Source of the DNA: Gammaproteobacteria bacterium
GTDB taxonomy: Bacteria; Pseudomonadota; Gammaproteobacteria; Arenicellales; Arenicellaceae
Length of the DNA stretch: 14,613 nucleotides
Direction: 5' to 3'
NCBI GenBank assembly: GCA_003485905.1
Contig: DNHK01000094.1
Coordinates: 1 to 14,613 of the forward strand
Shown: in pieces, positions 674 through 14,613 of the stretch
Numbering within the stretch: the first letter of the stretch is position 1
Layout: each line of letters opens with the position of its first letter
Translations under genes and position numbers: made by a program
The notes under the pieces: generated by a model
Databases searched by the model: none
Told to the model about the DNA's origin: nothing
The model's input: only the letters and a program-made list of their open reading frames with translations

Positions 674-1327
674 ATGCGATCACAAGTAAAAGAGACCGAT
701 CACATTTCAGAACTGCAGATTATCGACGCCGTCGTCACTCGCGGTGATACTGCATTGTTCGACCCGATTAGCTTTCGTTGTTTAAGTGGCCAAATCATAC
801 ATCTAGTAGGAGAAAATGGCGTAGGGAAAACAACCTTGATGCGTTCAATTTGTGGTTTTCGTTCAATTAGCTCAGGCCAGGTTCTTTGGAACGGAACAAG
901 TATTTACGGTAACGACGGCTTCTACTTGAATAGCGCCTATTTAGGACACCGGGATGCACATTCTCCTCTGCAATCTGCCTGGGAAAGCCTCCACTTCTAC
1001 CAAAGGCTCTACAATCCCGCTGCGGACCCGAAAGAAATTGATCCCTTACTTAATCAACTCGGCTTGCTGGCACAAGCTGACGTAGCAGTTGAGCATTTGT
1101 CATTTGGCCAAAAACGTAAACTTGCGATTGCCAGATTACTGCTATCGGAGCGCCAACTTTGGTTACTTGACGAACCGTTCTCTGGCGTTGATCGCGCAGG
1201 CCAGAAGTTAATCGAAAGTATTTGCCTGCAGCATATTCTGTCAAATGGCATGATGTTGATAACCAATCATGGCTCGTTAAAAAATACTGCCTTGCTGGAC
1301 GGTATTACCGAGGTCGAGCTTCGATGA
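674..1327 (+). CDS. ccmA: Heme exporter ATP-binding protein CcmA
   Basis: ABC-transporter ATPase of cytochrome c maturation System I. In the CcmABCD complex, ATP hydrolysis by CcmA drives release of heme-loaded CcmE from CcmC/D. It is a soluble protein on the cytoplasmic face, paired with CcmB. Visible motifs: Walker A GENGVGKT at residues 46-53, ABC signature LSFGQ at 142-146, Walker B LWLLDEP at 162-168 and H-loop His199. The segment YLGHRDAH (89-96) matches the CcmA-specific Q-loop region, with Arg where E. coli has Gln. The length of 217 aa is close to the usual 205-215. The 25-residue lead before the core fold makes the N-terminus slightly long, but no better start is visible. The TGA stop overlaps the ccmB start as ATGA, so the two are probably translationally coupled. 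This is the first gene of the nine-gene locus. Confidence 0.95.
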   Translation: MRSQVKETDHISELQIIDAVVTRGDTALFDPISFRCLSGQIIHLVGENGVGKTTLMRSICGFRSISSGQVLWNGTSIYGNDGFYLNSAYLGHRDAHSPLQSAWESLHFYQRLYNPAADPKEIDPLLNQLGLLAQADVAVEHLSFGQKRKLAIARLLLSERQLWLLDEPFSGVDRAGQKLIESICLQHILSNGMMLITNHGSLKNTALLDGITEVELR

Positions 1328-2043
1328 ATAACTTTAGCTCTAGGTCTACGGCCTCTGCCACTAATGGCTCGGTTTTAAACACACTAATGCGTCTGTTCTT
1401 GCGAGATTGTAAGCATCACCTACGTAAGCAAAGTGATATTCTTAACCCGCTTTGTTTTTTTATAATTATTTGCAGCCTGTTTCCATTGGGACTTTCTGCC
1501 GAGCGCGAGTTGCTAAATACAATAGGCGGCGGAGTAATTTGGGTGTCCATTCTGCTTTCCTTGATGATGGGCTTAAATCAGTTATTTCGAGACGATTATG
1601 AAGCTGGTGTACTGGAGCAGTTCTTATTTACTAATACATCGCTAACACAAGTCGTCCTCGCTAAAATTGCTGCGTATTGGTGTGTGAGTGCGCTACCCAT
1701 GATAATACTGTCTCCGATAGTTGGTACTGCTTATCATTTAACTAGCGATCAAATTCTGGTATTGGTGATGGGCTTGGCGCTCGGCAGCCCAACACTCGCA
1801 CTACTAGGCTCGATCGGCTCTGCGCTTACGCTAAACCTAAAAAACGGAGGGGTGTTATTGGCGATACTAATATTACCGTTATTTGCCCCCGTTTTAATTT
1901 TCGGCGCAGGGATGGTAAACGCGGTACATATTGGGCTGCCCGTTAATGCTCAATTATCCATCCTCGGAGCACTATTATTTGGTTCATTGAGTCTGGCGCC
2001 ATTTGCAACAAGCTTTGCGCTGAAAAATAGCTTGGATTATTAA
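1324..2043 (+). CDS. ccmB: Heme exporter membrane protein CcmB
   Basis: Membrane partner of CcmA in the CcmABCD holo-CcmE release complex, with about six TM helices and 239 aa from the ATG at 1324. I chose that start because it overlaps the ccmA stop as ATGA. The frame is open further upstream (an ATG at 1222), but that would run 100 nt inside ccmA. Family landmarks: ILNPLCFFIIICSLFPLGL (39-57), LFRDDYEAGVLEQ (87-99), MIILSPIVGT (126-135), GSPTLALLGSIGSALTL (154-170) and a C-terminal SLAPFATSFAL, all collinear with E. coli CcmB. CcmB proteins commonly begin near MRLFLRD, which here is Met22 (ATG at 1387). The first 21 residues (Ser/Thr/Asn-rich) are therefore either a small extension or untranslated, and 1387 is the alternative start. 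Confidence 0.93.
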   Translation: MNNFSSRSTASATNGSVLNTLMRLFLRDCKHHLRKQSDILNPLCFFIIICSLFPLGLSAERELLNTIGGGVIWVSILLSLMMGLNQLFRDDYEAGVLEQFLFTNTSLTQVVLAKIAAYWCVSALPMIILSPIVGTAYHLTSDQILVLVMGLALGSPTLALLGSIGSALTLNLKNGGVLLAILILPLFAPVLIFGAGMVNAVHIGLPVNAQLSILGALLFGSLSLAPFATSFALKNSLDY

Positions 2044-2105
2044 GTTACATACGGAATTACAACATATTGCCTATTACCGCTGAATATCAAAAATAATAAA
2101 AACTT

Positions 2106-2864
2106 ATGAATGTGTTTCTAAAATTCTATCATCGGCTAGGATCTCCCAGAGAGTTCTATAAAATTAGCGGAACTCTTATCCCATGGTTCGGGTCAATCAG
2201 TCTGATCTTAATTTTACTCGGTAGCTACCTAGGTTTAGTGGTTGCGCCGGCAGACTATCAGCAGGGAGAAAGCTACCGAATTATATACGTGCACGTGCCT
2301 TCAGCCTGGCTATCCATGTTTATTTACGCTGTGCTAGCAGTGTCGGCGATGATCGGCTTAATCTGGCGTATGAAAATGGCTTTCGTCGTCATGATCTGCT
2401 CTGCCGCACCCGGTGCATGGTTCACTCTATTGGCACTTATCACCGGTTCTTTATGGGGCAAACCTATGTGGGGAACCTGGTGGGAATGGGATGCCCGACT
2501 TACTTCAGAGTTACTCTTACTATTTCTCTATATCGGTATAATTGCCCTATATAATTCTTTTGATGAAAGGCATCTGGCAGAAAAATCAGCAGCTATCTTA
2601 GCTGTTGTTGGAGTCGTCAACCTACCAATCATTCATTACTCTGTAGAGTGGTGGAACACCTTACACCAAGGTTCCACGGTAATTCGCAGTGATGGCCCGT
2701 CTATGGATGTTAGAATGCTGTGGCCATTATTAATAATGGCGGTCGGCTTTAATTTTTATTATGGCTTGGTTCTATTATTGCGTGCGCGTAATCAAGTAGT
2801 TATACAAGAATTCCGAAACAGCTGGGTTAGAGAACTGCTAGTCAATAAAGGTGAGAGATCATGA
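2106..2864 (+). CDS. ccmC: Heme-handling protein CcmC
   Basis: Inner-membrane WWD-domain protein that presents heme to CcmE on the periplasmic side and, with CcmD, forms the platform for holo-CcmE. The tryptophan-rich WWD signature MWGTWWEWDARLTSELLLL spans about residues 121-139. The two heme-ligating histidines of the family are present as His63 (YVHVPSAW) and His187 (WWNTLHQG). NLPIIHYSVEWW (172-183) is a near-invariant CcmC block. About six TM helices and 252 aa are normal for the family. It starts 62 nt after ccmB with no obvious Shine-Dalgarno (AT-rich leader) and ends in an ATGA overlap with ccmD. Confidence 0.96.
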   Translation: MNVFLKFYHRLGSPREFYKISGTLIPWFGSISLILILLGSYLGLVVAPADYQQGESYRIIYVHVPSAWLSMFIYAVLAVSAMIGLIWRMKMAFVVMICSAAPGAWFTLLALITGSLWGKPMWGTWWEWDARLTSELLLLFLYIGIIALYNSFDERHLAEKSAAILAVVGVVNLPIIHYSVEWWNTLHQGSTVIRSDGPSMDVRMLWPLLIMAVGFNFYYGLVLLLRARNQVVIQEFRNSWVRELLVNKGERS

Positions 2865-3046
2865 ATGTTAGCGAATTCTTTGCAATGGGTGGGTACGCCG
2901 AATACGTATGGTCATCATGGCTATTAACATTACTGGTCCTCGCATGGAATGTGCTTGCACCACAGCGTAAACATCAAAAACTACTTGAGCAGTTGGAAGT
3001 TCAGACGAAGCGTGAACAGTTAAAAAATAGTACTCATAAAACATGA
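2861..3046 (+). CDS. ccmD: Heme exporter accessory protein CcmD
   Basis: Small single-TM protein (61 aa) that associates with CcmC and CcmE and is needed for release of holo-CcmE from CcmABC. The CcmD hallmark FFAMGGYAEYVW (residues 6-17) precedes one TM helix (about 17-33). A charged cytoplasmic tail follows (QRKHQKLLEQLEVQTKREQL), probably helical. It overlaps ccmC by ATGA at 2861 and ccmE by ATGA at 3043, indicating tight translational coupling. Such short genes are often missed, but the motif and location make this one secure. Confidence 0.92.
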   Translation: MNVSEFFAMGGYAEYVWSSWLLTLLVLAWNVLAPQRKHQKLLEQLEVQTKREQLKNSTHKT

Positions 3047-3519
3047 CACCCAAACAAAAAAGCCGCATGCGCGTCGTTTTACTGGTGCTCGCTGGTCTCT
3101 GTATAACGTCGTTACTAGCCTTAAACGCCTTTCGAAGCAATTTGATGTACTTCCTTACTCCTGCTGAAGTGGTGGCTGGTGATTACCCAGAGCAAGGAAT
3201 GTATCGGCTCGGAGGGATGGTTGTTGAGGGCAGTGTTCGTCGACTTGAAAATGGAATCACGGTTGAATTTGATCTCACAGACTATGAACAAACAGTCACT
3301 GTTAGATACACCGGCATTCTCCCTGACTTGTTTAGAGAAGGACAAGGTATCGTTGCACACGGTAAACTGGAAAACCAATTATTCACAGCAGAGGAAGTTT
3401 TGGCGAAACACGATGAGAGTTATATGGCTCCAGAAGTCGCTGAAGCAATGAAAAATGTCGATATGAGTGGAGCCATACCCTCAAGCGCGAGCAAATCAAG
3501 TTCCGGGGCTGCACTGTGA
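3043..3519 (+). CDS. ccmE: Periplasmic heme chaperone CcmE
   Basis: Membrane-anchored OB-fold chaperone that binds heme covalently through a histidine, receives it from CcmC and delivers it to CcmF/H. Residues 8-30 form an uncleaved N-terminal TM anchor (MRVVLLVLAGLCITSLLAL). The periplasmic beta-barrel domain follows, with GDYPEQGMYRLGGMVVEGSV (47-66) and TVRYTGILPDLFREGQG (86-102). The heme site is LAKHDESYMAPEV (120-132), with covalent His123 and axial Tyr127 in the HxxxY spacing. The C-terminal tail (140-158) is Ser/Ala-rich and looks flexible, as usual. The length of 158 aa is typical. It overlaps ccmD (ATGA) and ccmF (GTGA). Confidence 0.96.
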   Translation: MTPKQKSRMRVVLLVLAGLCITSLLALNAFRSNLMYFLTPAEVVAGDYPEQGMYRLGGMVVEGSVRRLENGITVEFDLTDYEQTVTVRYTGILPDLFREGQGIVAHGKLENQLFTAEEVLAKHDESYMAPEVAEAMKNVDMSGAIPSSASKSSSGAAL

Positions 3520-5489
3520 TTCCTGAGCTAGGGCATTTAGCACTTATCATGGCGCTTATTGTCGCAATGATTATGAGCGTAGTGCCATTAGTGGGCGCTC
3601 ACAAACGATATATAAATTGGATGAACATGGCACGACCGGCAGCACTTATACAGATGTTGTTTGTTGGCTTAGCTTACGCATGTCTAACATCTTCTTTTAT
3701 AACCTATGACTTTTCAGTTGCCTATGTCGCGCAGAATTCTAACTCCTCGTTACCGCTAATGTACCGGATATCAGGAGTTTGGGGTGGCCATGAGGGCTCA
3801 TTGTTGCTCTGGGCGTTAGTCCTTACCTTATGGACCGCAGCCGTCGCTGTTTTCAGTCGGGATATGCCACTTACCATGATTTCCAGAGTATTAGGTGTAA
3901 TGGGGTTAATCAATATCGGGTTTTTGGCCTTCATGCTTTTTACCTCAAACCCGTTTGAAAGAGTTATACCCGCCCTATTGGAAGGCCGCGATCTTAATCC
4001 AGTACTCCAAGATCCCGGACTTATTATCCATCCACCCATGCTGTATATGGGCTACGTAGGATTTAGCGTAGCCTTCGCGTTTGCAATTGCAGCGATGCTT
4101 GAAGGACGTTTAGATTCTGCTTGGGCCAAATGGTCACGTCCATGGACGACTATTGCGTGGGTTTTTCTGACCGCAGGTATTACCTTGGGCAGTTGGTGGG
4201 CATATTACGAACTTGGCTGGGGCGGCTGGTGGTTTTGGGACCCGGTCGAAAATGCATCCTTTATGCCATGGCTAGTGGGAACTGCCCTGATTCACTCTTT
4301 AGCAGTTGCAGAAAAACGATCAGCGTTTAAGGCCTGGACCGTATTACTAGCAATCACTGCTTTTTCACTGAGTCTACTTGGTACGTTTCTAGTTCGTTCT
4401 GGAGTCCTTACCTCGGTTCATGCGTTCGCAACTGACCCAGCCCGCGGCCTATTTATATTGGTGTTCCTTTTGATCGTGGTTGGTGGATCGTTACTTCTAT
4501 ACGCTATCCGTGCTTCACAGGTAAAAGCGCAAATAAGTTTTGAGTGGTTCTCTCGCGAATCGCTACTACTAGTCAATAATATATTGCTGGTAGTTGCTGC
4601 CGCTATGGTATTGCTTGGCACCCTATTTCCGTTACTAATGGACGCAATTGGTGCTGGAAAGTATTCAGTTGGCCCACCCTACTTCAATGCCATGTTCGTA
4701 CCCCTAACCCTACCACTGGCGATGCTGGTTGGAATTGGCGCTGTTTCTAAATGGAAGAAGGACGATCCCTCCCGCTTTAAACTCCTAGCCATTAGATTTT
4801 CGATAGCCTCACTTTTGCTCAGCGCAATTTGTACCGCGATGTTGGCCAATGGGTTTCATTATGTTGCGGCTGCCGTATTAGCAATCGCATGGTGGGTCGT
4901 TTGCTGGTCGCTATGGGCCGTATGGGATCGCTTGCGATATAAACAAAACAAACTTCGTTCGATACTCAGTATTCCCGCGTCCTTCTGGGGCATGCTTTTA
5001 GCACATGTAGGTATCGCAGTGTTTATTGTTGGAGTTAACCATATTAGTGCTTACAGCATTGAAAAAGACGTGCGTATGGCGCCTGGAGAATCTGTAGAGC
5101 TTGCAGCGTACGACATTACATTTATCGGGTCACAATCAATAAACGGCCCTAATTACAGTGGAAGTCGAGGAGAATTCTTGGTGCTCCGTGATGGCGAAGA
5201 ACTTTTTAGCCTAGAACCAGAGAAACGTTTCTATCCCGCGACCCAAAGCCCTATGACAGAGGCCGCCATTAATGGTTCGCTGCCGAGAGATATCTATATT
5301 TCACTAGGTGACGAGCTCGATAGTGGCGCATGGACCGCAAGGTTATATTATAAATCCTTCGCCGAATGTATTTGGTTAGGGGGATTCATGATGGCCTTCG
5401 GAGGTCTAATAACGATGTTTGATAGACGGTATAGACGACGCCGCAGCAAAACCACAGAAATGATCGAAAGCTCGGGCGCACGGGCTTAA
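3516..5489 (+). CDS. ccmF: Cytochrome c heme lyase subunit CcmF
   Basis: Large integral membrane subunit (657 aa) of the CcmFHI heme ligation module; it takes heme from holo-CcmE, reduces it and joins it to CXXCH cysteines of apocytochrome c. The start is GTG at 3516, overlapping the ccmE TGA as GTGA. Landmarks: VWGGHEGSLLLW (88-99), HPPMLYMGYVGF (172-183) and the WWD domain WWAYYELGWGGWWFWDPVEN (227-246). GTFLVRSGVLTSVHAFATDP (289-308) follows. Histidines 172, 260, 302 and 497 fall close to the four conserved CcmF histidines of E. coli, which bind the internal b-heme and the incoming heme. A soluble loop (about 510-610) precedes the last TM helix and a basic tail (DRRYRRRRSK). The length is normal, and no lesions are seen. 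Confidence 0.97.
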   Translation: MIPELGHLALIMALIVAMIMSVVPLVGAHKRYINWMNMARPAALIQMLFVGLAYACLTSSFITYDFSVAYVAQNSNSSLPLMYRISGVWGGHEGSLLLWALVLTLWTAAVAVFSRDMPLTMISRVLGVMGLINIGFLAFMLFTSNPFERVIPALLEGRDLNPVLQDPGLIIHPPMLYMGYVGFSVAFAFAIAAMLEGRLDSAWAKWSRPWTTIAWVFLTAGITLGSWWAYYELGWGGWWFWDPVENASFMPWLVGTALIHSLAVAEKRSAFKAWTVLLAITAFSLSLLGTFLVRSGVLTSVHAFATDPARGLFILVFLLIVVGGSLLLYAIRASQVKAQISFEWFSRESLLLVNNILLVVAAAMVLLGTLFPLLMDAIGAGKYSVGPPYFNAMFVPLTLPLAMLVGIGAVSKWKKDDPSRFKLLAIRFSIASLLLSAICTAMLANGFHYVAAAVLAIAWWVVCWSLWAVWDRLRYKQNKLRSILSIPASFWGMLLAHVGIAVFIVGVNHISAYSIEKDVRMAPGESVELAAYDITFIGSQSINGPNYSGSRGEFLVLRDGEELFSLEPEKRFYPATQSPMTEAAINGSLPRDIYISLGDELDSGAWTARLYYKSFAECIWLGGFMMAFGGLITMFDRRYRRRRSKTTEMIESSGARA

Positions 5490-5514
5490 CATTATTATTT
5501 AAGAAGAGCTTAGA

Positions 5515-6069
5515 ATGACTCAAGAATCATTTATACAAAAACCTCTCTTTTGGATTCCACTTACGCTATTCATTGGTTTGTGCATCTTACTAGCCGTCGG
5601 CTTAACCCTAAACCCTAGAGAAGTACCATCTCCATTAATTGGGAAACCAGCCCCGAAATTTGCTTTACCAATTTTAGGCAACTCGGAGCAAGTTTTTTCT
5701 ACTACCGACAACCTGGGGAAGCCATGGGTGCTGAATGTTTGGGCATCATGGTGCATAGCATGTCGTCACGAGCATCCAATTTTGAACGAATATGCACGTA
5801 ATAACGAAACATTTATCGTAGGGCTTAATTACAAAGATCCCCCCGCTAACGGTCAAGCCTGGCTAGATCAATTTGGCGACCCGTACACACTTTCAGTTAT
5901 TGATTTCGATGGCCGAACCGGAATTGATTGGGGCGTATATGGCGTGCCGGAAACCTTTGTCGTGGATGCGAGTGGAATTATTCGCTACAAACATATAGGT
6001 CCGATAACCGTTAGTTCATTGCAAAACGAAATCGTACCGCTATTGCGAGAGTTGAGTCTTGAAATGTAA
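5515..6069 (+). CDS. ccmG: Thiol:disulfide interchange protein CcmG (DsbE)
   Basis: Membrane-anchored periplasmic thioredoxin-fold protein that supplies reductant to keep apocytochrome c (and CcmH) cysteines reduced; it is itself recharged by DsbD/CcdA. N-terminal TM anchor at about residues 11-31, then the CcmG lead-in LIGKPAPKFALP (41-52). The active site is WASWCIACRHEHP with Cys80 and Cys83. GLNYKD (103-108) and the cis-proline loop GVYGVPETFVVD (140-151) fix the family. The dipeptide between the cysteines is Ile-Ala rather than the Pro-Thr of E. coli. The length of 184 aa is typical. An AAGAAGAG purine run at about 5500-5507 is a plausible ribosome binding site. Unlike most of the locus, it is followed by a 114-nt gap before ccmH. 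Confidence 0.95.
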   Translation: MTQESFIQKPLFWIPLTLFIGLCILLAVGLTLNPREVPSPLIGKPAPKFALPILGNSEQVFSTTDNLGKPWVLNVWASWCIACRHEHPILNEYARNNETFIVGLNYKDPPANGQAWLDQFGDPYTLSVIDFDGRTGIDWGVYGVPETFVVDASGIIRYKHIGPITVSSLQNEIVPLLRELSLEM

Positions 6070-6085
6070 GCCCCGTAAGGGTGTG

Positions 6086-6130
6086 TTTCGATTTACTTAA
6101 TGCTCCATGCTGCATTGTTCTCAATCGAAA
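6086..6130 (+). other. Two-tier stem-loop in the ccmG-ccmH gap
   Basis: The outer stem TTTCGATT (6086-6093) pairs perfectly with AATCGAAA (6123-6130). Inside it AATGC (6099-6103) pairs with GCATT (6112-6116) around an 8-nt loop, with a wobble pair possible below. Asymmetric internal loops separate the tiers. No T-tract follows, so it is not a classical intrinsic terminator. It may stabilise the upstream mRNA, serve as an RNase processing site that uncouples ccmHI from ccmA-G, or be a DNA-binding palindrome. The element is direct sequence observation; the role is inference. Confidence 0.45.
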
Positions 6131-6183
6131 TCATTAGACAGTAAAAATCCACATCGGACCACACCAAAACCAGTAAAACGTAA

Positions 6184-6663
6184 ATGCTATTAAAATTGCA
6201 CAAAGCATCACTAAAAATATTGGCCATAGTGATGGCCTTGCTAATGTCTATTCATGGCTCTGTTTTTGCAGAAATTGAGCTTCGTGAATTCCCCAATGAG
6301 GAAGTCAGAGAGAACTATCTACAGTTAATCGATGAACTCCGCTGCTTGGTGTGTCAAAACCAAAATTTGGCTGCATCGGATGCAGAATTGGCCAACGACC
6401 TTCGTGACGAAACTTTCGAAATGCTGTTGAATGGGCAGAGTGTCGCCGATGTTAAAGCGTTCATGGTCGCTCGCTACGGTGAGTTTGTACTATACAAACC
6501 GCCATTTTCTCCAGCTACATGGTTAATTTGGATAGGCCCTTTTGTGTTATTAGCGGCGGGACTCGTCATCGCTGTTTTTATTACGCGAAGATCCTCCAAC
6601 ACAAAAATACGAGAAATTAGTCAGACGGATTCGCTGCGAATTGACGAACTGCTTGGCAAATGA
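6184..6663 (+). CDS. ccmH: Cytochrome c maturation thiol-reductase subunit CcmH (short form)
   Basis: Periplasm-facing redox subunit of the heme ligation complex that handles the CXXCH cysteines of apocytochromes with CcmG and CcmF. A Sec signal peptide spans residues 1-29 with likely cleavage after SVFA. Then comes the CcmH/NrfF/CcmL three-helix domain with the redox motif LRCLVCQNQNLAASDAEL (52-69; Cys54 and Cys57). Further matches are LLNGQSVADVKAFMVARYGEFVLYKPP and a C-terminal TM helix (about 113-133) with a short cytoplasmic tail. It is 159 aa, so this is the stand-alone form and the TPR part is encoded separately as ccmI. The codon immediately before the ATG is TAA, so no longer start is possible. 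No clear Shine-Dalgarno is visible. Confidence 0.95.
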   Translation: MLLKLHKASLKILAIVMALLMSIHGSVFAEIELREFPNEEVRENYLQLIDELRCLVCQNQNLAASDAELANDLRDETFEMLLNGQSVADVKAFMVARYGEFVLYKPPFSPATWLIWIGPFVLLAAGLVIAVFITRRSSNTKIREISQTDSLRIDELLGK

Positions 6664-6710
6664 ATCACACGACTTCCCCTCTATTTTGATTTAAATTTAA
6701 CAAACTTTCT

Positions 6711-7952
6711 ATGATCACATTTATTATTGTTGGCTGCGTGATGGTACTCGTATCCCTGTTAGCACTGGTACTCCCTCTGAGCGCTAATAGTACATCAGCA
6801 CCCGTGAATAGTGAGGCGCACAACATAGAAATTGCACGCGAAAAACTGGCTGACTTTGAACTGCAAAAAAGCACCGGGTCAATCTCTGATGCTCAATACA
6901 CAAAACTATCAGAAGAAGCAAAACGGGTGCTCATGCATGAGGCAGATCTGGGTAATGCTCCGCAACTAATACACGGGAACCCCCTTTTGATCAGTGTCGC
7001 AATTGCTGCTTTGGTTCCTATACTTGCGCTAACTCTCTATTTGTCACTAGGATCACCAGAAGGTTTACAGCTTGCAGCCAGCGCTCCGCAACAAACTGCA
7101 CAGTCTGATCAGAGTATAGACAACCTCCTTCAAGATCTGGAGGACAAAATGATTAACAATCCCGATGACGCTGAAGGCTGGGCCTTGCTTGGAAGATCCT
7201 ATATGTCGATGCAACGATTTCCACAAGCGCATAAAGCCTATAGTAACCTTCGACGGATACTTGGGGATCAACCATCGGTTCTACTGCAATTAGCGGACGC
7301 AGAAGTAATGTTAAATGGTGGCGCATTTACTGAAAACACCAAACAATACGTATCACTTGCCTACGCTGCCGAACCTGACAATGTGCAAGCAGTATGGATG
7401 TCGGCAATGTTAGATACTCAGGAGGGAGATCTCGCTGGCGCTATTAATAAATGGGAAAAGCTAGATGCGCTTTTAGTCGGACAGCCCGAACAACAATCAC
7501 GAATTAGAAACCTACTCAGCCAAGCTCGTTCGACGTTACCCGAATCAGGGTCGCCCGATCTGACACCGACAGCCAGACAGACAGAATCTGTCGCGGAACA
7601 AAATCTAGTGTCTGTCACTATCGAAGTGGGACTTTCAAAAGATTTACCTGCTCCAATACAGGACGATATGCTGGTTTATGTTTATGCCCGAGCAGCTAGT
7701 GGGCCGCCTATGCCTTTGGCAGTCAAACAGCTTCGAGTCGGGGACCTTCCTAGCACAGTCATCCTGACTGAAAATGACGCCATGATTGATGGTATGACCC
7801 TGGCGCGATTTCCGCAGATCGTAATAGGAGCCAGGGTGTCAATCACGGGGGAACCAACTGCACAGCCTGGCGATATTCAAAGTGTCACGTCGGAACTAAC
7901 TTTACCTCTTGAAAACCCTATAGAACTGGAAATTAAGGATTTAGTTAACTAG
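6711..7952 (+). CDS. ccmI: Cytochrome c maturation TPR protein CcmI (CycH)
   Basis: Membrane-bound apocytochrome c chaperone of the CcmFHI complex; its TPR domain binds the C-terminal helix of apocytochromes. Order of parts (413 aa): TM1 (about 3-24), then a cytoplasmic helical loop with the CcmI-type heptad region (EIAREKLADFELQK...LSEEAKRVLMHE, 40-77). TM2 follows (about 91-113). A periplasmic TPR array (about 147-255) includes DDAEGWALLGRSYMSMQRFPQA and AINKWEKL. The C-terminal beta-rich domain (about 298-410) has VYARAASGPPMPLAVKQL, DLPSTVILTENDAM and the terminal LELE-like segment typical of gammaproteobacterial CcmI. It starts 47 nt after ccmH with an AT-rich leader. It is the last gene of the locus and converges on the MMPL gene 47 nt beyond its stop. 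Confidence 0.92.
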   Translation: MITFIIVGCVMVLVSLLALVLPLSANSTSAPVNSEAHNIEIAREKLADFELQKSTGSISDAQYTKLSEEAKRVLMHEADLGNAPQLIHGNPLLISVAIAALVPILALTLYLSLGSPEGLQLAASAPQQTAQSDQSIDNLLQDLEDKMINNPDDAEGWALLGRSYMSMQRFPQAHKAYSNLRRILGDQPSVLLQLADAEVMLNGGAFTENTKQYVSLAYAAEPDNVQAVWMSAMLDTQEGDLAGAINKWEKLDALLVGQPEQQSRIRNLLSQARSTLPESGSPDLTPTARQTESVAEQNLVSVTIEVGLSKDLPAPIQDDMLVYVYARAASGPPMPLAVKQLRVGDLPSTVILTENDAMIDGMTLARFPQIVIGARVSITGEPTAQPGDIQSVTSELTLPLENPIELEIKDLVN

Positions 7953-7999: not shown

Positions 8000-10528
8000 C
8001 TACGCAGCACTCTTTCGATTATCCATAAGTTGAATTACCGCTGGAAAGAAAGTTAACGAAGCAACAAGACAGCAAAGCAATCCTATACACGCCACCAGCC
8101 CCAAAGACACCAATCCATTATTGCCAGCAGAAAGCATACCGGCAAAACCAAACATAGTCGTCATCGTACTCAATACTGCTGCCATACCAGTTGTTCGAAT
8201 TGCTTTCAAAATCCCGTTACGCCCTTCCTCATCATAACGGTGATAAATGTGAATTGCATTGTCTATGCCAATACCTAAAACAGTAGGTAAAACTACCATA
8301 TTAAAAATATTGAGCTTAATTTCCCAAAACCCCATGAGCCCAAACATTACAATCATTCCCACAATGATTGGTGATAAAGCCAGGGCGGCCTTAGACGGAC
8401 GACGATACACAAGTAGCAACATAATAAATAGGCTTACCAGGACAGCACCTATCGACGTAGCGGCCTCCGACTTCATTAAGTTCAACATATCGACAAAGAT
8501 CATTGCCTCGGTTGCTGGATAAAATGTTTTGCCGTTCGCTTTAATTTCGCGAATATCGTCGACAAATTCTTGCGCATCCGCAAGCTTTGCAACACTCTTC
8601 GTATTATAGATATACACCAAATAACCACCCGAATCAGAAACTCCGGTGTAAACTAATTTAAGAGCTTCCGGAAGCTCTTCAGGTGTCAACTCGCCGATAC
8701 CGGTGTAGGCCAAAAACTCTTGCAAACTCTCTATTTGCTGCTGATCTTCTTCGTTAAAATCTTCAAGTAATCGAACTGCCTCTTCGATCTGTTTCTCTAT
8801 TAGCGTGATTTCAGCCAGCCGAGCTTCTTGCTCAGCCTTGTCTGGCACCAAATCATATATCGACTTCACTGCTTCAATACTCGAAACATCTACACTCTGT
8901 TGTCGAATACTTTCCACCGCTTCCACCACCGCAGCCACATCCTCTAGTGACTCAATAAAGACTACTGCGCGATCTGTTCGCAACGGAAATACTTTATTAA
9001 TATCATCTTTTACCGGCTGCAACTGCGGAATCTCCGCACGCAGCTTACTAAAATCATCTTCAAAACGTACCTTAGAAATTCCTGAACTAGCAACTAAGCA
9101 CACGACGAGTGTCCCAATCACCCATAGAGCCGGTTTTGCCATTGGCTTGTTTATTTCTCTATTTGCTACTAAACCGGTTGCTAGCTCCTTGCTTTGACCT
9201 CCTTTATTTTTCTTTGGTTTATATAACTTAATTTTCTCGGCCAACAGCATTAGTGAGGGAAAAACCAAGTACATAGAAATCAACGACAACAAGACACCTG
9301 TTCCAGCGATAAAACCAAATTCAAAAAACGCTTTAAAGTCAGATACCATCAACGCATAAAATGCGATAACCGTTGTGATGGCAGCCATTACCGAGGCACG
9401 CCCAGTTTTATCACACACCATCAACAAAGCTTGTTGTTGGCTATCACCATTTCTACGGGTTTCCTCATACCTGGACAAGTTGTGGATCCCAAAATCGATT
9501 CCCAATCCAAATAGGATGATCACGAGAAAAATTGTAATCAAATTTAAACTACCCAATACCACTTGGACGATGCCGAAGGTCCATAAAAACGCGACAATCA
9601 ATGGAACTCCTATGTAAACCAACGCCAGTACGCGCCTGTAAAACAACAACATCGCCATAAAGATCGCGCCTATCGACCAAAATGCGCTGTTTTTCAGATC
9701 AGTGATGACGGCATCAAATTCCTCAACACGGTTTCGCACCCGGCCGCCAATCTTGACAGTCATTCCCGGGTGATATTCAGACAAATCAAACGACGCCACT
9801 CTAGCTTCAACCTCATCAAGCAAACGTCTACTTTGACCCATCCCGGTGGTGGAACCACTCGGTAAAATATTTAGGATCGCGAGCTCACCGGATTCGTCCG
9901 TGAATAATTTACGTGCGCTGTCTGAATCATCGGATTCCGATTCATCGGCCCCGTATTTTTCCTGAATATCACTAAAGTCTATTGATGGGGGCGCATCCCG
10001 CCCCGCACCACGAATTCGAATTTGGACATCTGTATCGTTAATTTTAAAATCGAGATTTTCTTTCTCATATTCGATTCGATCTCCGAACCGAACTCTTACT
10101 TCCCTCAAATCCTCAACATCAACATATAGTAATTGGTGCTCCTGGAATATCTCGATGTCTTCCGCATACTCCGCGCTACTTACCCAATCCCACTCAAGTA
10201 TCGCTTCTCGAAGATCTTCCAGCAGTCGAATATTACCGTCTGGATCAGGTGAATTAGCCACCACCATAATTGAACTATAGCCACCAGTTTTTTCAACTAC
10301 CTTTTCAAGGTTTTCAACACTAGCAACACCATCGGGCATTAGCGACGTAATATCTGTATCCAACCGCATGTTCTTAGCGCGATCAAAACCTACATAAGCA
10401 AGTGCAAACGCGAGCAGTAAGATAATTAGATAACTACGCTGAATAAATCTAACTAAAAATCGAACAAATGCCGGTGCCTTCGACAAATCGCTATTCGCAT
10501 GATCATTGTTTTGTTCGCTTATATTCAT
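8000..10528 (-). CDS. MMPL/HpnN-like RND-superfamily transporter, probable lipid exporter
   Basis: Inner-membrane RND protein of 842 aa with the duplicated MMPL layout. Each half is one TM helix, a large periplasmic loop and five clustered TM helices. Half one: TM1 about 33-49, loop 50-278, TM2-6 about 281-428. Half two: TM7 about 467-484, loop 485-688, TM8-12 about 690-832. Both halves carry the family motif in their fourth TM region: GLGIDFGIHNLSRYEE (341-356) and GIGIDNAIHIYHRYDE (752-767). Their buried Asp is the presumed proton-coupling residue. Loop 1 has an acidic Asp/Ser/Glu-rich patch (193-204). Hopanoid (HpnN), mycolate (MmpL) and sterol (BstA) transporters share this architecture, so a hydrophobic lipid substrate is likely. 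It begins 6 nt after the secreted-protein gene, arguing that the two work together. There is no adaptor or outer-membrane channel nearby. Substrate is inferred, not shown. Confidence 0.85.
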   Translation of the reverse strand: MNISEQNNDHANSDLSKAPAFVRFLVRFIQRSYLIILLLAFALAYVGFDRAKNMRLDTDITSLMPDGVASVENLEKVVEKTGGYSSIMVVANSPDPDGNIRLLEDLREAILEWDWVSSAEYAEDIEIFQEHQLLYVDVEDLREVRVRFGDRIEYEKENLDFKINDTDVQIRIRGAGRDAPPSIDFSDIQEKYGADESESDDSDSARKLFTDESGELAILNILPSGSTTGMGQSRRLLDEVEARVASFDLSEYHPGMTVKIGGRVRNRVEEFDAVITDLKNSAFWSIGAIFMAMLLFYRRVLALVYIGVPLIVAFLWTFGIVQVVLGSLNLITIFLVIILFGLGIDFGIHNLSRYEETRRNGDSQQQALLMVCDKTGRASVMAAITTVIAFYALMVSDFKAFFEFGFIAGTGVLLSLISMYLVFPSLMLLAEKIKLYKPKKNKGGQSKELATGLVANREINKPMAKPALWVIGTLVVCLVASSGISKVRFEDDFSKLRAEIPQLQPVKDDINKVFPLRTDRAVVFIESLEDVAAVVEAVESIRQQSVDVSSIEAVKSIYDLVPDKAEQEARLAEITLIEKQIEEAVRLLEDFNEEDQQQIESLQEFLAYTGIGELTPEELPEALKLVYTGVSDSGGYLVYIYNTKSVAKLADAQEFVDDIREIKANGKTFYPATEAMIFVDMLNLMKSEAATSIGAVLVSLFIMLLLVYRRPSKAALALSPIIVGMIVMFGLMGFWEIKLNIFNMVVLPTVLGIGIDNAIHIYHRYDEEGRNGILKAIRTTGMAAVLSTMTTMFGFAGMLSAGNNGLVSLGLVACIGLLCCLVASLTFFPAVIQLMDNRKSAA

Positions 10529-10534
10529 ATCAGT

Positions 10535-11743
10535 CTAGTTCAACGTCATGAGGTCCGCTAAACCCTTTCCTGTCACTTTCGTGCTAATCCCGTTAGATAT
10601 ATACGTAAAGTCATACGAAATTCGATATCGAGTATTTACAGGAGTTTTAAACATTCGCACAAAAAATCGCTCAAATGGCTTCAATTCATCAACAACATCA
10701 AATTTTTGAACCTGAGTAGTTAAGCTAATTGTGCCATTCAATTCGCCGGCACCGACTGCAGTAATGGGTATATTCATACAGCACTCGGCACGCTTATCTT
10801 CCAATAACGATGCTTCAATCTCGAAAGACAAATCATCAACTACCGATGCCTCATGATCTAAAAGCCGAATATTGGCCCTGGTTTTTCCATTCTTCAACTG
10901 GCGAATATCAACTACCGGGCTAATATCGTGATCAGAAGAACTTCCTGTCGCAAAGGCTCGCAACCAGGCACTCGCAGCTTCTCCCATCGCGCTACTTGTG
11001 ACGTGCCTTAATCCATGCCCAACACCTTTGCCCAATGCTTGATATTCTTCGGCCACCCCAGTGTTTTCATCCTTGATCCGATATTGACCGGACACTGCCA
11101 TCTTCGGTGCAAAAACATTTACGTATTGATAACCTCTCTTTGTGCCGGACCATACGATACCCAGGTCCATTGGAGCGGCAATCGATTTTGCAACCAAGTC
11201 AATATCCCCTGATGGGTGAGAAAATTGAAAATGAAATGTGTCGTTATCTTTCCAGAAATGGTGTTGCGCAATTTGATAATCAAACTCACCTTCATGTTTA
11301 AACCAATCAGAACGCCCGCGACCGTTCTTAAGCGTTATCTCTCGACCTACCGGGTCAGTCAACTTTATTAACACCAACATACGGTGTTTGCCCGACCCAA
11401 AATTGCTGACTGCAATTTGTGCGCTGATGATTGTCCCATCATCGAAGTCGAACATAAAATCCCAACCTTCCGAATAAGTACTTCCATTTAAGTACGCCGG
11501 TGCATACACGGGAGCAATGCTATCGCCTTGATCCCACATGACACCCTTACCTGTACTTATCGAATGATTTAAACCGGCTTCAATCGCTACCACAGGCCCA
11601 ATTTGATTTGAACCCGGTGCAGGCGCTTCTGTAGAATTTTCCGATGTTGAGACGATATCCGTACCCGTCGCTGCCAACGATACCGACGGGAGCATTAGCA
11701 AACTCAACGCCAGACTAAGAAATTTGACTTGGTTCATAAACAT
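10535..11743 (-). CDS. Secreted lipocalin-like protein, tentatively Svf1/CrtC-AttH-like
   Basis: Secreted or periplasmic protein of 402 aa. A Sec signal peptide covers residues 1-24 (cleavage near VSLA/ATG); no lipobox Cys, so probably soluble. A Ser/Thr/Pro-rich linker runs to about 50. The rest is beta-rich with two apparent halves. The first (about 68-215) contains GWDFMFDFDDGTIISAQIAV (93-112), NGRGRSDWF (140-148) and YVNVFAPKMAVSGQYRI (207-223). The second (about 235-400) contains GKGVGHGLRHVTSSAMGEAA (238-257) and FDVVDELKPFERF (348-360). The pattern recalls the two-domain lipocalin-like fold of CrtC/AttH, and most of all fungal Svf1 (vFvP..x.G.I, AASxW, DvxxElp). Yeast Svf1 is reported to bind ceramide. 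The resemblance is from memory and remote. An alternative start is Met3 (11737). The neighbours suggest a lipid-carrier role. Confidence 0.6.
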   Translation of the reverse strand: MFMNQVKFLSLALSLLMLPSVSLAATGTDIVSTSENSTEAPAPGSNQIGPVVAIEAGLNHSISTGKGVMWDQGDSIAPVYAPAYLNGSTYSEGWDFMFDFDDGTIISAQIAVSNFGSGKHRMLVLIKLTDPVGREITLKNGRGRSDWFKHEGEFDYQIAQHHFWKDNDTFHFQFSHPSGDIDLVAKSIAAPMDLGIVWSGTKRGYQYVNVFAPKMAVSGQYRIKDENTGVAEEYQALGKGVGHGLRHVTSSAMGEAASAWLRAFATGSSSDHDISPVVDIRQLKNGKTRANIRLLDHEASVVDDLSFEIEASLLEDKRAECCMNIPITAVGAGELNGTISLTTQVQKFDVVDELKPFERFFVRMFKTPVNTRYRISYDFTYISNGISTKVTGKGLADLMTLN

Positions 11744-11834
11744 ACCGCGCTCAAGGTAGACAGATACTCGATTGAGATCTTTGCAGCCCGCTTTGTGAGC
11801 CGAGCTCCCAATACGTGCGCTAACTCACCCTTAC

Positions 11835-13112
11835 TCAACTATTATTTATAAGACCGAATTCCCTGCCAACACTTGCAAATATATCAAGTGCTTTATCAAG
11901 GTGCTCCGGCCTATGGCTTGCCATCACACTAGTTCTTATTAATGCTGCATCCTTAGCGACACCTGGATGAATGACGGGAGTCACAAACAAGCCTCCATCA
12001 AACAATTTTCGCCAAAACTGTAGTGCCTGCATGTCGTCCCCTACAAATACAGGTACTACGGTTGACTCGGTGTTAAGGGTATCAAAACCCAAATCAATTA
12101 ATCCATTTCTAAGGTAATCAGCATTTGCCCAGAGCCTTTCGCGGCGTTCAGGTTCGTTCTCAATAATATCAAGCGCTGCCAGCGCAGACGCTGTATTCGC
12201 CGCAGGTAAACTGGCTGAGAATATCAATGGTCGGGCATGATGTTTTAGATAGTCCATGGTGTCAGCATCACCAGCCAAACATCCTCCTATTGTCGCCATT
12301 GATTTACTGTAGGTACCCATTATGATGTCTACCTTATCTTCCACCCCAAAGTGTTGTGCGGTACCAGCGCCATTCTTACCCAAGACCCCAATACCATGCG
12401 CATCATCAACCATGACGGCCGCACCAAATTCATCTGCCAGCCGAGTGATCTCTGGTAACGGCGCTAGATCGCCTTCCATGCTAAAAACCCCGTCGACAAC
12501 GATCAACATCGGTCGGCCTTGATTTTCTGTCAGCAACCGATGTAAATCTTCCATGTCGTTATGATTATACTTGCGTGTTTGTCCATAGGACAAACGACAA
12601 CCATCATAGATACAAGCATGATTTGAGCGATCAATGATAACTACATCACCCTTACTAACTAAACCAGCAATCCCACCCAAATTAGCCTGAAATCCAGTAG
12701 GAAAAACAATCGCTGCTTGCTTGGAGAAAAATTTCGCTAATCGAGCTTCAAGTTCTTCATGTAAGGCTAAGGTGCCATTTAAAAATCGTGAACCCGCACA
12801 CCCAGTTCCATACTCGCGCGTTGCTTTAATCGCCGCTTCGACAACTTTAGGGTGACTTGTTAAACCCAGATAATTATTCGAGCTGAGCATAACCATGTCA
12901 CGGCCATCGCATCGAACCTCTGGTTCTTGGGCAGATTCCAAAGCCTTAAAATAGGGATATATATCCGCCGCGCGCAATTCTTCCACACGCTGATAATCAC
13001 CTACTCGATCAAAAATTGATGGTCGCGGTCGCATAGGCTTAATACCCGAATCACTCTCGGTGGATTCAACCAAGTTCTTAGTTAAACCGCTTGCCAAATT
13101 ATTATTTTTCAT
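11835..13112 (-). CDS. Serine palmitoyltransferase-like alpha-oxoamine synthase (PLP)
   Basis: Fold-type I PLP enzyme of the alpha-oxoamine synthase family (BioF/KBL/HemA/SPT), 425 aa. SPT condenses serine with a fatty acyl thioester to 3-ketosphinganine in the cytoplasm. Counting from the ATG at 13112: DIYPYFKALESAQ (50-62), SSNNYLGLTSHPKV (77-90), GTGCAGSRFLNGTLALHEELE (102-122), SNHACIYDG (163-171, ring-stacking His), VVDGVFSMEGDLAPLPEI (205-222), VDDAHGIGVLG (235-245, Asp/His for PLP), MGTYSKSMATIGG (265-277, Schiff-base Lys270) and LIRTSVMASHRPE (391-403, SPT-type Arg). Text such as HNDMEDL, GDLAPLPEI and NEPERRERLW strongly recalls Bacteroidetes SPT more than BioF, which has GTLGKA at the lysine. 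A TTG six nt upstream is possible, but the ATG overlaps the SDR stop as ATGA. BioF or 2-amino-3-ketobutyrate ligase is the main alternative. Confidence 0.72.
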   Translation of the reverse strand: MKNNNLASGLTKNLVESTESDSGIKPMRPRPSIFDRVGDYQRVEELRAADIYPYFKALESAQEPEVRCDGRDMVMLSSNNYLGLTSHPKVVEAAIKATREYGTGCAGSRFLNGTLALHEELEARLAKFFSKQAAIVFPTGFQANLGGIAGLVSKGDVVIIDRSNHACIYDGCRLSYGQTRKYNHNDMEDLHRLLTENQGRPMLIVVDGVFSMEGDLAPLPEITRLADEFGAAVMVDDAHGIGVLGKNGAGTAQHFGVEDKVDIIMGTYSKSMATIGGCLAGDADTMDYLKHHARPLIFSASLPAANTASALAALDIIENEPERRERLWANADYLRNGLIDLGFDTLNTESTVVPVFVGDDMQALQFWRKLFDGGLFVTPVIHPGVAKDAALIRTSVMASHRPEHLDKALDIFASVGREFGLINNS

Positions 13113-14155
13113 AACCAATTATTTCGCTGATACCAAGATACCAGCTCATTTATGGCGGTTGGCAGCGGATGCAATGTTTCATGCCGCAGCTCGTTCGTCG
13201 CCTTGCTAACATCAAGCGACCAATCTGGTTGTAAGAATTCGTCAATCCGCGTGCTATTTATTAACACTGTCCGATTGCTAAATCGGCTGACTAACTGGCC
13301 CATCCTACCTGCCAACTTTAATATTTTCTGACCGAATCGTACGCGTCTTGGTTCAACTTTCATTGCTAGCGCCGCTAGGCGTTCAAATTCACTCCAGCAA
13401 TACGGCTGTTGATCAGCAACGAAGAAAGTACTGCCATTACGTACCTCTGCAACTGCTGAGCGAGCCATCAATTTCACCAAATCATTTACATGACAAAGAC
13501 TTATAATTCGATCTACGGACCCCAATTGTATCAGGTATTTATACTTTAACAGTTTAAATATAGGCAAAAACTCCCGATCACCAGGACCATAAACCGCGCT
13601 AGGCCTTAAGATAATATAAGGTAAATGCGTCGATTTGCTGAACAGAAACTCTTCGGCTTCAAGTTTCGAACGGCCATATGCTGTTATCGGATTAGAAACA
13701 TCAGTTTCACGCCGCGGTTGACCTGCACTTGGCCCAGCTGCCGCCTGACTAGATACAAATACAAAACGCTTGATTGGTGGTTTAACTGCAAGCACTGCAT
13801 TGACCACATTCCGCGTGCCCATAACATTGTGTAAGTAATATTCTGCTTCACTTGGTGCCCCCGTTACCCCTGCCACGTGGAACACATAATCTACCCCAGC
13901 AACGCCTTCACGTAGGGCGTCCAGATTATGTAAATCGCCTACAACCCCACTCACTCCATTCAGACTATTAAACTCGGTAGGTAGCGATTGCCTAATCAAG
14001 CAGCGAACTTCATACCCCTCCGAAACCAACTCTGGCACAAGATGCTTGCCAACAAAGCCACTGGCACCGGTTACAAATGCCAGTTTCGAGCCACCCTGTC
14101 GATTATGTGACGCCGAATTCACATCTGCCTGAGACTCAACGCGCATCTCAGCCAT
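13109..14155 (-). CDS. Extended SDR (NAD-dependent epimerase/dehydratase family), candidate 3-ketosphinganine reductase
   Basis: Rossmann-fold oxidoreductase of 348 aa. A 23-residue polar leader precedes LAFVTGASGFVGKHL (25-39), the TGxxGxxG nucleotide site. GDLHNLDAL (73-81) supplies the adenine-binding Asp, and VFHVAGVTG (91-99) the usual second-strand motif. The active site is VSSQAAAG (134-141), Tyr160 and Lys164 (YGRSK), followed by RPSAVYGPGDREFLPIFKL (184-202). The C-terminal half (from about 210) is the variable substrate domain. Extended SDRs include sugar epimerases, hydroxysteroid dehydrogenases and the bacterial ceramide-pathway reductase CerR. Its overlap with the SPT-like gene (ATGA) favours reduction of that enzyme's ketone product, but no motif fixes the substrate. 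Its ATG overlaps the hflD stop by one base (TAATG). The alternative start is Met4. Confidence 0.8.
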   Translation of the reverse strand: MAEMRVESQADVNSASHNRQGGSKLAFVTGASGFVGKHLVPELVSEGYEVRCLIRQSLPTEFNSLNGVSGVVGDLHNLDALREGVAGVDYVFHVAGVTGAPSEAEYYLHNVMGTRNVVNAVLAVKPPIKRFVFVSSQAAAGPSAGQPRRETDVSNPITAYGRSKLEAEEFLFSKSTHLPYIILRPSAVYGPGDREFLPIFKLLKYKYLIQLGSVDRIISLCHVNDLVKLMARSAVAEVRNGSTFFVADQQPYCWSEFERLAALAMKVEPRRVRFGQKILKLAGRMGQLVSRFSNRTVLINSTRIDEFLQPDWSLDVSKATNELRHETLHPLPTAINELVSWYQRNNWL

Positions 14156-14613
14156 TAATCAGCGGCCCCACTTGCCAACAAGTCGCTTGCGGCAGTTTGA
14201 TAGGCTTTCCGTCTCAACAACATCTCAAACCGACCACCGCCTAATTGTTCCCAAAGCACCACACAGCGTATCCCTGCTAATAACATTGTTCTAATCTTGT
14301 TGCTTACGGCTTCTTGCTCAAGAAAACGTTGCTCTCCTTGCACGTAAACTCTCGGTTTTAAAGGACTAACGGCTTCTAGGTAAAGCTCAGCACAGCTGGC
14401 AAAGAGCTCTTCGTCATCGAGAGTTTTAATCCAGTCTAATCGATCAATTACTTTCTGCTGGGCAATTGAGTTTGAGAACAAAGACTTCTTAAGTGATATC
14501 AAAGTATTCATATATCGATACACGTCTATGGCCTTTCCATCAGTGGCTTGCCCAATCCCACCCGCCATCAAACCTAACCCCCTGCCTAGCCCGGACCGGC
14601 TGCCAAACACCGA
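14155..14613 (-). CDS. hflD: HflD (high-frequency-lysogenization protein D / YcfC), C-terminal part
   Basis: The frame is open to the window edge, so the gene starts outside; the 152 residues here are roughly the C-terminal three quarters of a protein usually a little over 200 aa. It begins SVFGSRSGLGRGL, matching the mid-N-terminal AVFGG... block of E. coli HflD. The diagnostic C-terminal stretch is YLEAVSPLKPRVYVQG (about 78-93), then KIRTMLLAGIRCVVLW and EQLGGGRFEMLLRRKAYQTA. HflD is a helical, peripherally inner-membrane-associated protein. In E. coli it binds phage lambda CII, and its housekeeping role is unclear. It normally follows mnmA, which should lie just beyond the right edge. Here its stop codon shares a base with the SDR start. 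The GTG at 14610 is an internal valine, not the start. Confidence 0.9.
   Translation of the reverse strand, partial: SVFGSRSGLGRGLGLMAGGIGQATDGKAIDVYRYMNTLISLKKSLFSNSIAQQKVIDRLDWIKTLDDEELFASCAELYLEAVSPLKPRVYVQGEQRFLEQEAVSNKIRTMLLAGIRCVVLWEQLGGGRFEMLLRRKAYQTAASDLLASGAAD

Follow-up and report, generated by a model that had tools for sequence, protein, structure and literature searches.

Four adjacent genes on the minus strand of a 14,613-nucleotide stretch of DNA from a Gammaproteobacteria bacterium of the family Arenicellaceae (contig DNHK01000094.1 of assembly GCA_003485905.1; the whole stretch is called the window here) encode an extended short-chain dehydrogenase/reductase (SDR), a pyridoxal phosphate (PLP) enzyme of the serine palmitoyltransferase (SPT) type, a secreted protein with a predicted double-lipocalin fold (the carrier) and an MMPL transporter. 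The balance of probability tips slightly toward these four genes, referred to as the cassette, working as a single conserved unit for the synthesis and export of a sphingolipid, the likeliest product being an inositol-phospho-sphingolipid. This reading builds on direct observations, namely the content, order and conservation of the genes, the position of the PLP enzyme in the SPT clade, the predicted fold of the carrier and the co-occurrence with an inositol pathway in relatives. The features are as follows.

13109..14155, minus strand: extended SDR, predicted 3-ketosphinganine/ceramide reductase (CerR-like), open reading frame (ORF) of 348 aa, Pfam Epimerase/3Beta_HSD
11835..13112, minus strand: SPT-type alpha-oxoamine synthase (PLP enzyme), 425 aa from the ATG at 13112
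10535..11743, minus strand: secreted double-lipocalin (AttH/CrtC fold) protein, predicted periplasmic sphingolipid carrier, ORF of 402 aa
11672..11743, minus strand: Sec-type signal peptide of the carrier, residues 1-24, with a basic n-region, a hydrophobic core and SLA before ATG
8000..10528, minus strand: MMPL/RND transporter, predicted inner-membrane sphingolipid exporter, ORF of 842 aa, Pfam MMPL

The initial annotation had described four adjacent minus-strand genes, with an ATGA overlap between the first two and a 6-nt gap between the last two. All four were recovered as ORFs at 8000-14155 with the same coordinates, and both the overlap of the SDR stop with the ATG of the SPT and the 6-nt gap between carrier and MMPL genes are present in the sequence. 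With a TTG start, the ORF of the PLP enzyme extends over 11835-13118 (427 aa). Compared with a metagenome-assembled genome (MAG) of Arenicellaceae (locus L001), all four genes appear to be under purifying selection (dN 0.05-0.20, dS 0.84-1.60, NG86). No N-acyltransferase, acyl carrier protein (ACP) or acyl-ACP ligase gene was found within the cassette, and no ACP gene fits between the four genes since the gaps are only 6 and 91 nt. Promoter-like patterns occurred about as often as expected by chance (13 vs 11.9), and terminator-like patterns were near chance (10 vs 6.1 expected, sd 2.6).

The PLP enzyme belongs to the Pfam family Aminotran_1_2. Its top NCBIfam model was the SPT model NF047600, with 519 bits under a cut-off of 640, and two other SPT-family models also scored below their cut-offs (NF047599, 408 of 500; NF047603, 319 of 670), as did the KBL and BioF models among the matches listed. 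Because no equivalog cut-off was reached, the enzyme is called SPT-type in this paper. The best match in the PDB was the SPT of Sphingobacterium (432 bits), compared with 270 bits for E. coli KBL and 220 bits for BioF. Maximum-likelihood analysis of 45 proteins placed the enzyme inside an SPT fork of 30 rows (support 100/98), which also holds the Sphingobacterium and Parabacteroides enzymes along with the ACP-linked ones from Roseomonas and Sphingomonas. Outside it fall BioF and, together with the KBL-like proteins of the surveyed order, E. coli Kbl. Among these reference rows the Sphingobacterium enzyme is the sole solved and named SPT, those of Parabacteroides, Roseomonas and Sphingomonas being counted as SPT by kinship or context; the tree programme issued a warning about the joining of long branches, and the SPT-side rows of Priestia, Rubrobacter and Aureispira are without known function. 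Within the fork, the window SPT does not group with the ACP-linked SPTs of Roseomonas and Sphingomonas, and the SPTs of cassettes do not form one clade separate from cassette-free paralogs. At the 16 columns that separate four agreeing reference SPTs from 10 KBL-type rows, the window enzyme has the SPT letter in 12, the KBL letter in none and another letter in 4; a separate test with 15/15 columns involves some circularity, its SPT rows having included the window and its kin. The SPT-like identity given in the initial annotation is thereby upheld by the tree, and an identity as KBL or BioF is rejected on the tree and the separating columns.

Lys272, His167, Asp238 and His241 are each present in 18 of 18 cassette SPTs, and we take them to be the PLP lysine, the ring-stacking histidine, the PLP aspartate and a second histidine, respectively. 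The checked residues do not discriminate the amino-acid substrate, and a cysteate-C-fatty acyltransferase (28eh, 280 bits) is found among the PDB relatives, so that the SPT-SDR pair might make another alpha-oxoamine lipid, such as a sulfonolipid from cysteate or a 1-deoxy base, to be exported by the same transporter and carrier. We regard this as very improbable: the Sphingobacterium SPT scores far higher, the enzyme stands with SPTs in the tree (which holds no sulfonolipid enzyme), and the transfer of a phospho-head group requires a free C1 hydroxyl, which is absent in a sulfonolipid or a 1-deoxy base. A second SPT-type gene without a cassette, inside the SPT clade, was observed in four genomes (L105 in G060, L106 in G015, L107 in G029, L108 in G003; genomes are labeled G and loci L), where it lies divergent from the gene of an AraC-type regulator (assigned by Pfam in L105 and L108). 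MAGs from 38 phyla of the Black Sea are reported to contain SPT-like proteins (PMC11334938; this and the other papers cited are used through excerpts of their text), therefore the presence of an SPT in such bacteria is not in itself new.

The SDR is an extended SDR; its named relatives, HpnA (a hopanoid-associated sugar epimerase) and OleD, are distant. Over 323 residues it shares 29% identity with the SDR encoded in an SDR-ACP-SPT cluster of Sphingomonas (L170), which is counted as cerR by gene position only, and it is 31% and 33% identical to the SPT-adjacent SDRs of Aureispira and Rubrobacter, respectively. This homology supports the claim of the initial annotation that the SDR reduces a ketone, as a reductase of the long-chain base or of ceramide. 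The motifs TGxxGF.G and YGxSKL are near-invariant among cassette SDRs. A hydropathy scan of the SDR revealed no transmembrane segment, and no signal-like start was seen by eye. As the excerpted report places CerR of Caulobacter in the periplasm (PMC11087976), the order of steps may differ here. A query with the Sphingomonas ACP gave no match in the 1.147 Mb of fetched loci, the extent of the ACP search; no whole-genome search for ACP or AasR was made. On plasmids of Rubrobacter (L174) and Aureispira (L168), an enzyme of the SPT clade was observed together with a GNAT protein and a CerR-like SDR; the two GNAT proteins are about 380 aa long and 32-34% identical to each other, and no relatives of them were found in the same fetched loci. 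These triads are candidate ceramide gene sets outside Proteobacteria, in which the GNAT proteins look like N-acyltransferase candidates.

The distribution of the cassette was surveyed in 100 genomes of the order, which is probably Arenicellales, 274 of the class and 398 of the phylum. In the order, the carrier was found in 14 genomes; an SPT query from a distant member matched 54 genomes at E 1e-60, with best matches of 587-926 bits in the same 14 carrier genomes and at most 303 bits in any other. The class survey gave the carrier in three genomes (G001, on which the survey was centred, G210 and G326), the same three in which the SPT exceeded 520 bits, two further genomes having an SPT at 330-339 bits, and the phylum survey gave it in G001 and G660. 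In the order, Fisher tests yielded p values of 2e-17 for carrier and SPT and 9e-14 for the inositol-1-phosphate synthase (MIPS) described below; they are uncorrected for kinship and overstate independence, because the cassette SPTs fall into about seven groups, between which identity does not exceed 86%. The gene order is maintained across these groups.

Regions were fetched from 12 of the 14 order genomes, together with L001 and L002. SDR, SPT, carrier and MMPL genes lie in this order on one strand in 11 genomes (G001, G049, G040, G060, G064, G035, G003, G015, G023, G045 and G029). Rows cut by contig ends do not show four whole genes (contig C72 of G064, in L032; G068, in L035 and L037; G002, which ends in the carrier), and the visible parts of G002 and G068 are consistent with the cassette order. 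L001 and L002 are the two loci that a carrier search returned from the genome collection, and their SPTs are 92% and 88% identical to that of the window. Outside these close kin, identity to the window is 62-68% for SPT, 49-53% for MMPL (43% over a 260-residue end in L032), 39-43% for SDR and 26-31% for the carrier. The flanks vary and include hflD/ccm, an RNase D gene (Pfam in L027), CDP-alcohol phosphotransferases and radical SAM genes; as both the order and the class survey show the arrangement again amid other flanking genes, it is more than chance. A neighbourhood search, which the initial annotation had put forward as a check, thus returned the four genes together in many other genomes, with complete overlap of SPT and carrier in the order (14/14).

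Further genes were observed around the cassettes. Downstream of it in some relatives (L027, L036, L025, L026 and L028; shown in L027) are a PF05118 aspartyl/asparaginyl hydroxylase-domain protein, presumably of LpxO type, a PST flippase and a radical SAM protein. Other relatives (L030, L034, L044 and L070) have a fatty acid desaturase, with PF00487 in L030, L044 and L070, and an LptA-like protein, for which PF03968 was just above cut-off in L070 and unmatched in L034. Two cassettes were found in one MAG, G064 (contigs C160 and C72); G015 has an SPT identical to the one on the 3.4-kb C72, a sign that the G064 bin may be cross-contaminated.

MIPS (PF01658) was detected in 12 of the 14 cassette genomes of the order, G040 and G064 being without it, and in none of the 86 others; 15 of 17 carrier genomes have it, compared with 6 of 14 control genomes. 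A cytidylyltransferase gene directly follows MIPS in all 12 MIPS loci fetched. In G001 and G002, MIPS stands behind the S4 and L17 ribosomal protein genes and that of RNA polymerase alpha (Pfam) and ahead of the cytidylyltransferase, whose best PDB match in G002 is a CTP:inositol-1-phosphate cytidylyltransferase (79.9 bits). A CDP-alcohol phosphotransferase occurs in the stretch round the cassette in 11 of the 14 order genomes (up to 37 kb read, in G035). Its gene is inserted between carrier and MMPL in G210 and G326 (Pfam in L045), and other genomes have one or two downstream phosphotransferases with an N-terminal extension that was read as NTP-transferase-like (nucleoside triphosphate; one weak Pfam match, E 0.0027). 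One phosphotransferase family (c40) stands in the MIPS locus of G001 and G002 and, in G023 and G068, two genes behind MMPL on the opposite strand; the proteins of the two places are 42-46% identical (for the G002 enzyme, 42-45% with that of G023 and 45% with that of G068), and the MIPS-locus enzyme shares about 30% identity over part of its length with the in-cassette one of G210 and G326. MIPS locus and cassette are tied together by this relationship of their phosphotransferases. In G660, carrier, MMPL, NTP transferase, flippase-like, phosphotransferase and MIPS genes lie within about 13 kb, and the 39 kb read there gave no SPT match, which points to an inositol lipid as the cargo of the pump. 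We infer that the window's own genome also has an inositol locus.

It is rather unlikely, though it deserves consideration, that the inositol genes serve a glycerol-based phosphoinositide or the solute di-myo-inositol phosphate instead, the sphingolipid having another head group or none. The phosphotransferases have their best matches in AF2299 or the bifunctional IPCT/DIPPS family (in both, for the one of the G002 MIPS locus), the known IPCT/DIPPS product in thermophiles is a solute (PMC9246714, excerpt), MIPS stands at a separate locus, and the tandem phosphotransferases of another family (c5) have no match in G001 and one weak match in G002. Against this, every order genome with MIPS (12/12) is also one of the SPT carriers, in other genomes the cassette has genes of related phosphotransferases next to or within it, and Bacteroidetes that make phosphoinositol dihydroceramide have MIPS, NTP transferase and CDP-alcohol phosphotransferase, a function that is proposed in the excerpted source (PMC9246714).

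The carrier begins with a Sec-type signal peptide, as read by eye, and a search for a lipobox pattern found none. No Pfam or NCBIfam match was obtained for it at E limits of 0.1 and 0.01, and structure prediction indicated a two-domain beta fold of the AttH/CrtC double-lipocalin type over most of its length. The term lipocalin-like, used in the initial annotation, therefore fits at the level of the predicted fold and fails by sequence, as no lipocalin-type Pfam family scored over cut-off, nor did any in the 14 and 37 carrier members scanned. A single weak Svf1_C match (E 0.091, 13 bits of 25) was seen in 1 of 14 members (L026) and none in the 37 members of the larger alignment A9, which excludes L026; DUF6139 was detected below cut-off in 12 of 37, at best with 20 bits vs 27. 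Viral contigs gave no match to the carrier's patterns, and plasmids gave no carrier match in tblastn. The AttH/CrtC double-lipocalin proteins NE1406, Fsa2, CghA and kievitone hydratase are 7-13% identical to the carrier in fold alignments, and unlike them the carrier is secreted and tied to an MMPL gene.

The 14 closest structures share the full-length fold of the carrier, and 13 of them are enzymes by title, including the pericyclases Fsa2, CghA and Phm7 and their kin, kievitone hydratase and 25-phosphosteroid lyase; the remaining one is a putative AttH without stated role. Seven charged residues (Glu92, Asp95, His120, Lys139, Arg142, Arg246 and Arg359) are invariant in 14 carrier members, and Glu92 and Arg142 are still invariant in 37 (mapped via the first row by eye). 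These enzyme relatives and invariant residues, Glu92 and Arg142 among them, would suit a different division of labor, in which the synthesis module stands, the double-lipocalin protein is a periplasmic lipid-modifying enzyme (hydratase, lyase or isomerase) and MMPL is the sole exporter. We consider this unlikely, yet serious enough to be kept in view. Its gene adjoins the transporter gene, or is one gene away in G210 and G326, the protein drifts faster than the neighbouring enzyme (26-31% vs 62-68% for SPT), and yeast Svf1, a lipid binder, presumably belongs to the same fold class, though the sole Svf1_C match is the weak one given above.

The MMPL transporter matches Pfam MMPL with 159 bits. 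Identities as HpnN and as BstA were rejected on score (TIGR03480, 277 bits with a cut-off of 752; NF045600, 200 of 1400), and NF052374 gave 143 of 1100. Two aspartates, Asp345 in GLGIDFGIHNL and Asp756 in LGIGxDN, are invariant across 12 aligned cassette MMPLs; in other RND pumps, two transmembrane aspartates have a proton-driving role. Its predicted RND fold matches NCR1/NPC1, HpnN, CmeB/AcrB and MmpL5 within 1.4 Z units, and since these match about equally, the fold gives no clue to the cargo. The export role of MMPL and carrier, the cargo and the direction of transport are thus suggested by protein family and gene neighbourhood. That the two proteins move an unrelated cargo, such as a hopanoid or a polysaccharide lipid, and stand beside the SPT by operon history only, seems quite improbable. 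In its favour, HpnN is the nearest named MMPL family, and the 39 kb read in G660 include MMPL and carrier but no SPT. Against it, the pair co-occurs with this SPT type in 14 of 14 order genomes and 3 of 3 class genomes, and the adjacency is maintained while other neighbours change. The cassette MMPL differs from the HpnN hopanoid transporter by its score, and to our knowledge no double-lipocalin partner of HpnN has been described.

For the sphingolipid unit, we infer each catalytic and transport step. SPT would condense serine and an acyl thioester in the cytoplasm, the SDR, in which no signal peptide was seen by eye, would reduce the 3-keto group, and a further N-acyltransferase, encoded outside the four genes, would complete the ceramide. 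The head group would be supplied by a pathway near the cassette or at a second locus, leading from MIPS through CTP:inositol-phosphate cytidylyltransferase to CDP-alcohol phosphotransferase. Powered by the proton gradient via its two transmembrane aspartates, the MMPL pump would lift the lipid from the inner membrane, and the double-lipocalin carrier would take it from MMPL and shield it on its way to the outer membrane. In a bolder form, to which we give slightly less than an even chance, the MMPL pump and a periplasmic double-lipocalin chaperone make up a dedicated export route, a counterpart of NPC1/NPC2 or BstA/BstB, that evolved with an inositol-phosphoceramide pathway in Gammaproteobacteria independently of the Caulobacter Lpt-type route, and the carrier family, which has no name in Pfam, would represent bacterial proteins that bind ceramide, in the fold class that presumably includes yeast Svf1.

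Several points weigh against the proposal of one unit for synthesis and export. Besides the enzymes that prevail among the fold matches of the carrier, both SPT and MMPL score under curated equivalog cut-offs, and the checked catalytic residues are also present in Kbl and BioF, hence they define the wider family only. No ceramide N-acyltransferase was identified in a search with PF04339 only; this family, which we take to be a link to Caulobacter cerS, was found in 94 of the 100 order genomes, and because it is near-universal in the order the search was uninformative and yielded nothing usable. MIPS and the head-group genes were observed in relatives, the closest of them with SPTs 92% and 88% identical, and the co-occurrence comes partly from shared ancestry. 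G057 keeps SDR, SPT and MMPL with only a fragment of the carrier (46% over 50 residues) and has no phosphotransferase near the cassette or the MIPS locus. In G660, carrier, MMPL and inositol genes are present and the 39 kb read, the part of the genome that was searched, gave no SPT match; the head group and not the backbone could therefore determine the cargo.

The transport of sphingolipids to the outer membrane was stated to be unresolved in 2024, and LptC2/F2/G2 and a flippase (CC_1166) are the transport candidates in Caulobacter (PMC11087976, PMC11324152, excerpts). Like the Caulobacter-type cluster (aasR-cerR-acpR-spt, cerS, LptC2/F2/G2 and CC_1166; PMC11324152), the genes described here combine SPT, reductase and putative transport genes with a CDP-alcohol-type head-group enzyme in the region; unlike it, the cassette has no ACP or acyl-ACP ligase beside the SPT, an MMPL and double-lipocalin pair replaces the Lpt proteins, and the SPT lies apart from the ACP-linked SPTs. 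The initial annotation held that a compact unit for synthesis and export in a gammaproteobacterium would be new. This does not hold, since the excerpted report describes contiguous clusters of synthesis and putative Lpt-type transport genes in Azotobacter vinelandii and Pseudomonas luteola (PMC11324152); the differences from these are the type of transporter, the SPT branch and the inositol pathway. A similar inositol set in Bacteroides vulgatus and Prevotella, proposed for phosphoinositol dihydroceramide, comprises in its alternative cluster MIPS, NTP transferase, CDP-alcohol phosphotransferase and a HAD hydrolase (PMC9246714, excerpt). As there, MIPS adjoins an NTP transferase, and in G001 and G002 a CDP-alcohol phosphotransferase is close by; unlike there, the inositol set co-occurs with the export pair, in Gammaproteobacteria, and the HAD partner was not searched for. 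The closest working analogy to the MMPL and carrier pair is BstABC sterol transport of Methylococcus capsulatus, in which, in the excerpted account, an RND/MMPL-type inner-membrane pump and a periplasmic lipid-binding protein form a proposed outer-membrane route (PMC10942540); unlike the carrier, BstB is of the phosphonate-binding-protein family and not a lipocalin, the BstABC cargo is a sterol, and a BstC-like gene was not searched for here. Literature searches, outside which most subscription journals lay, found among the papers listed neither an MMPL pump linked to bacterial sphingolipid export nor anything on sphingolipids in Arenicellales.

The gene upstream of the SDR is a further feature of the window.

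14155..14613, minus strand: hflD with its 5' end cut, NCBIfam HflD 114 bits, abutting the SDR

It is found at this position in the window, L001 and L002, with other genes there elsewhere, and is a neighbour in the window lineage only, outside the conserved cassette. An ordinary-looking ccm operon for cytochrome c maturation (674-7952, plus strand; names by eye) is convergent with the cassette. At 3-380 on the minus strand, the first 126 residues of a PST-type flippase are encoded, and 94 residues of this fragment align at 33% identity with the flippase-like protein of the G660 inositol cluster (L046).

With the SPT gene beside the presumed export partners, the export question is accessible to single deletions or to the transfer of the four genes to a laboratory strain. 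The cassette names two testable proteins for the transport of sphingolipids to the outer membrane beyond the Lpt-type candidates, and it gives a genomic context for an undescribed double-lipocalin family. If the reading is true, the pairing of an inositol lipid pathway with sphingolipids, a feature of Bacteroidetes, would extend to Gammaproteobacteria, probably to Arenicellales. The cassette, whose genes stay together in distant relatives, is thus a concrete candidate for how some bacteria bring sphingolipids to the outer membrane.

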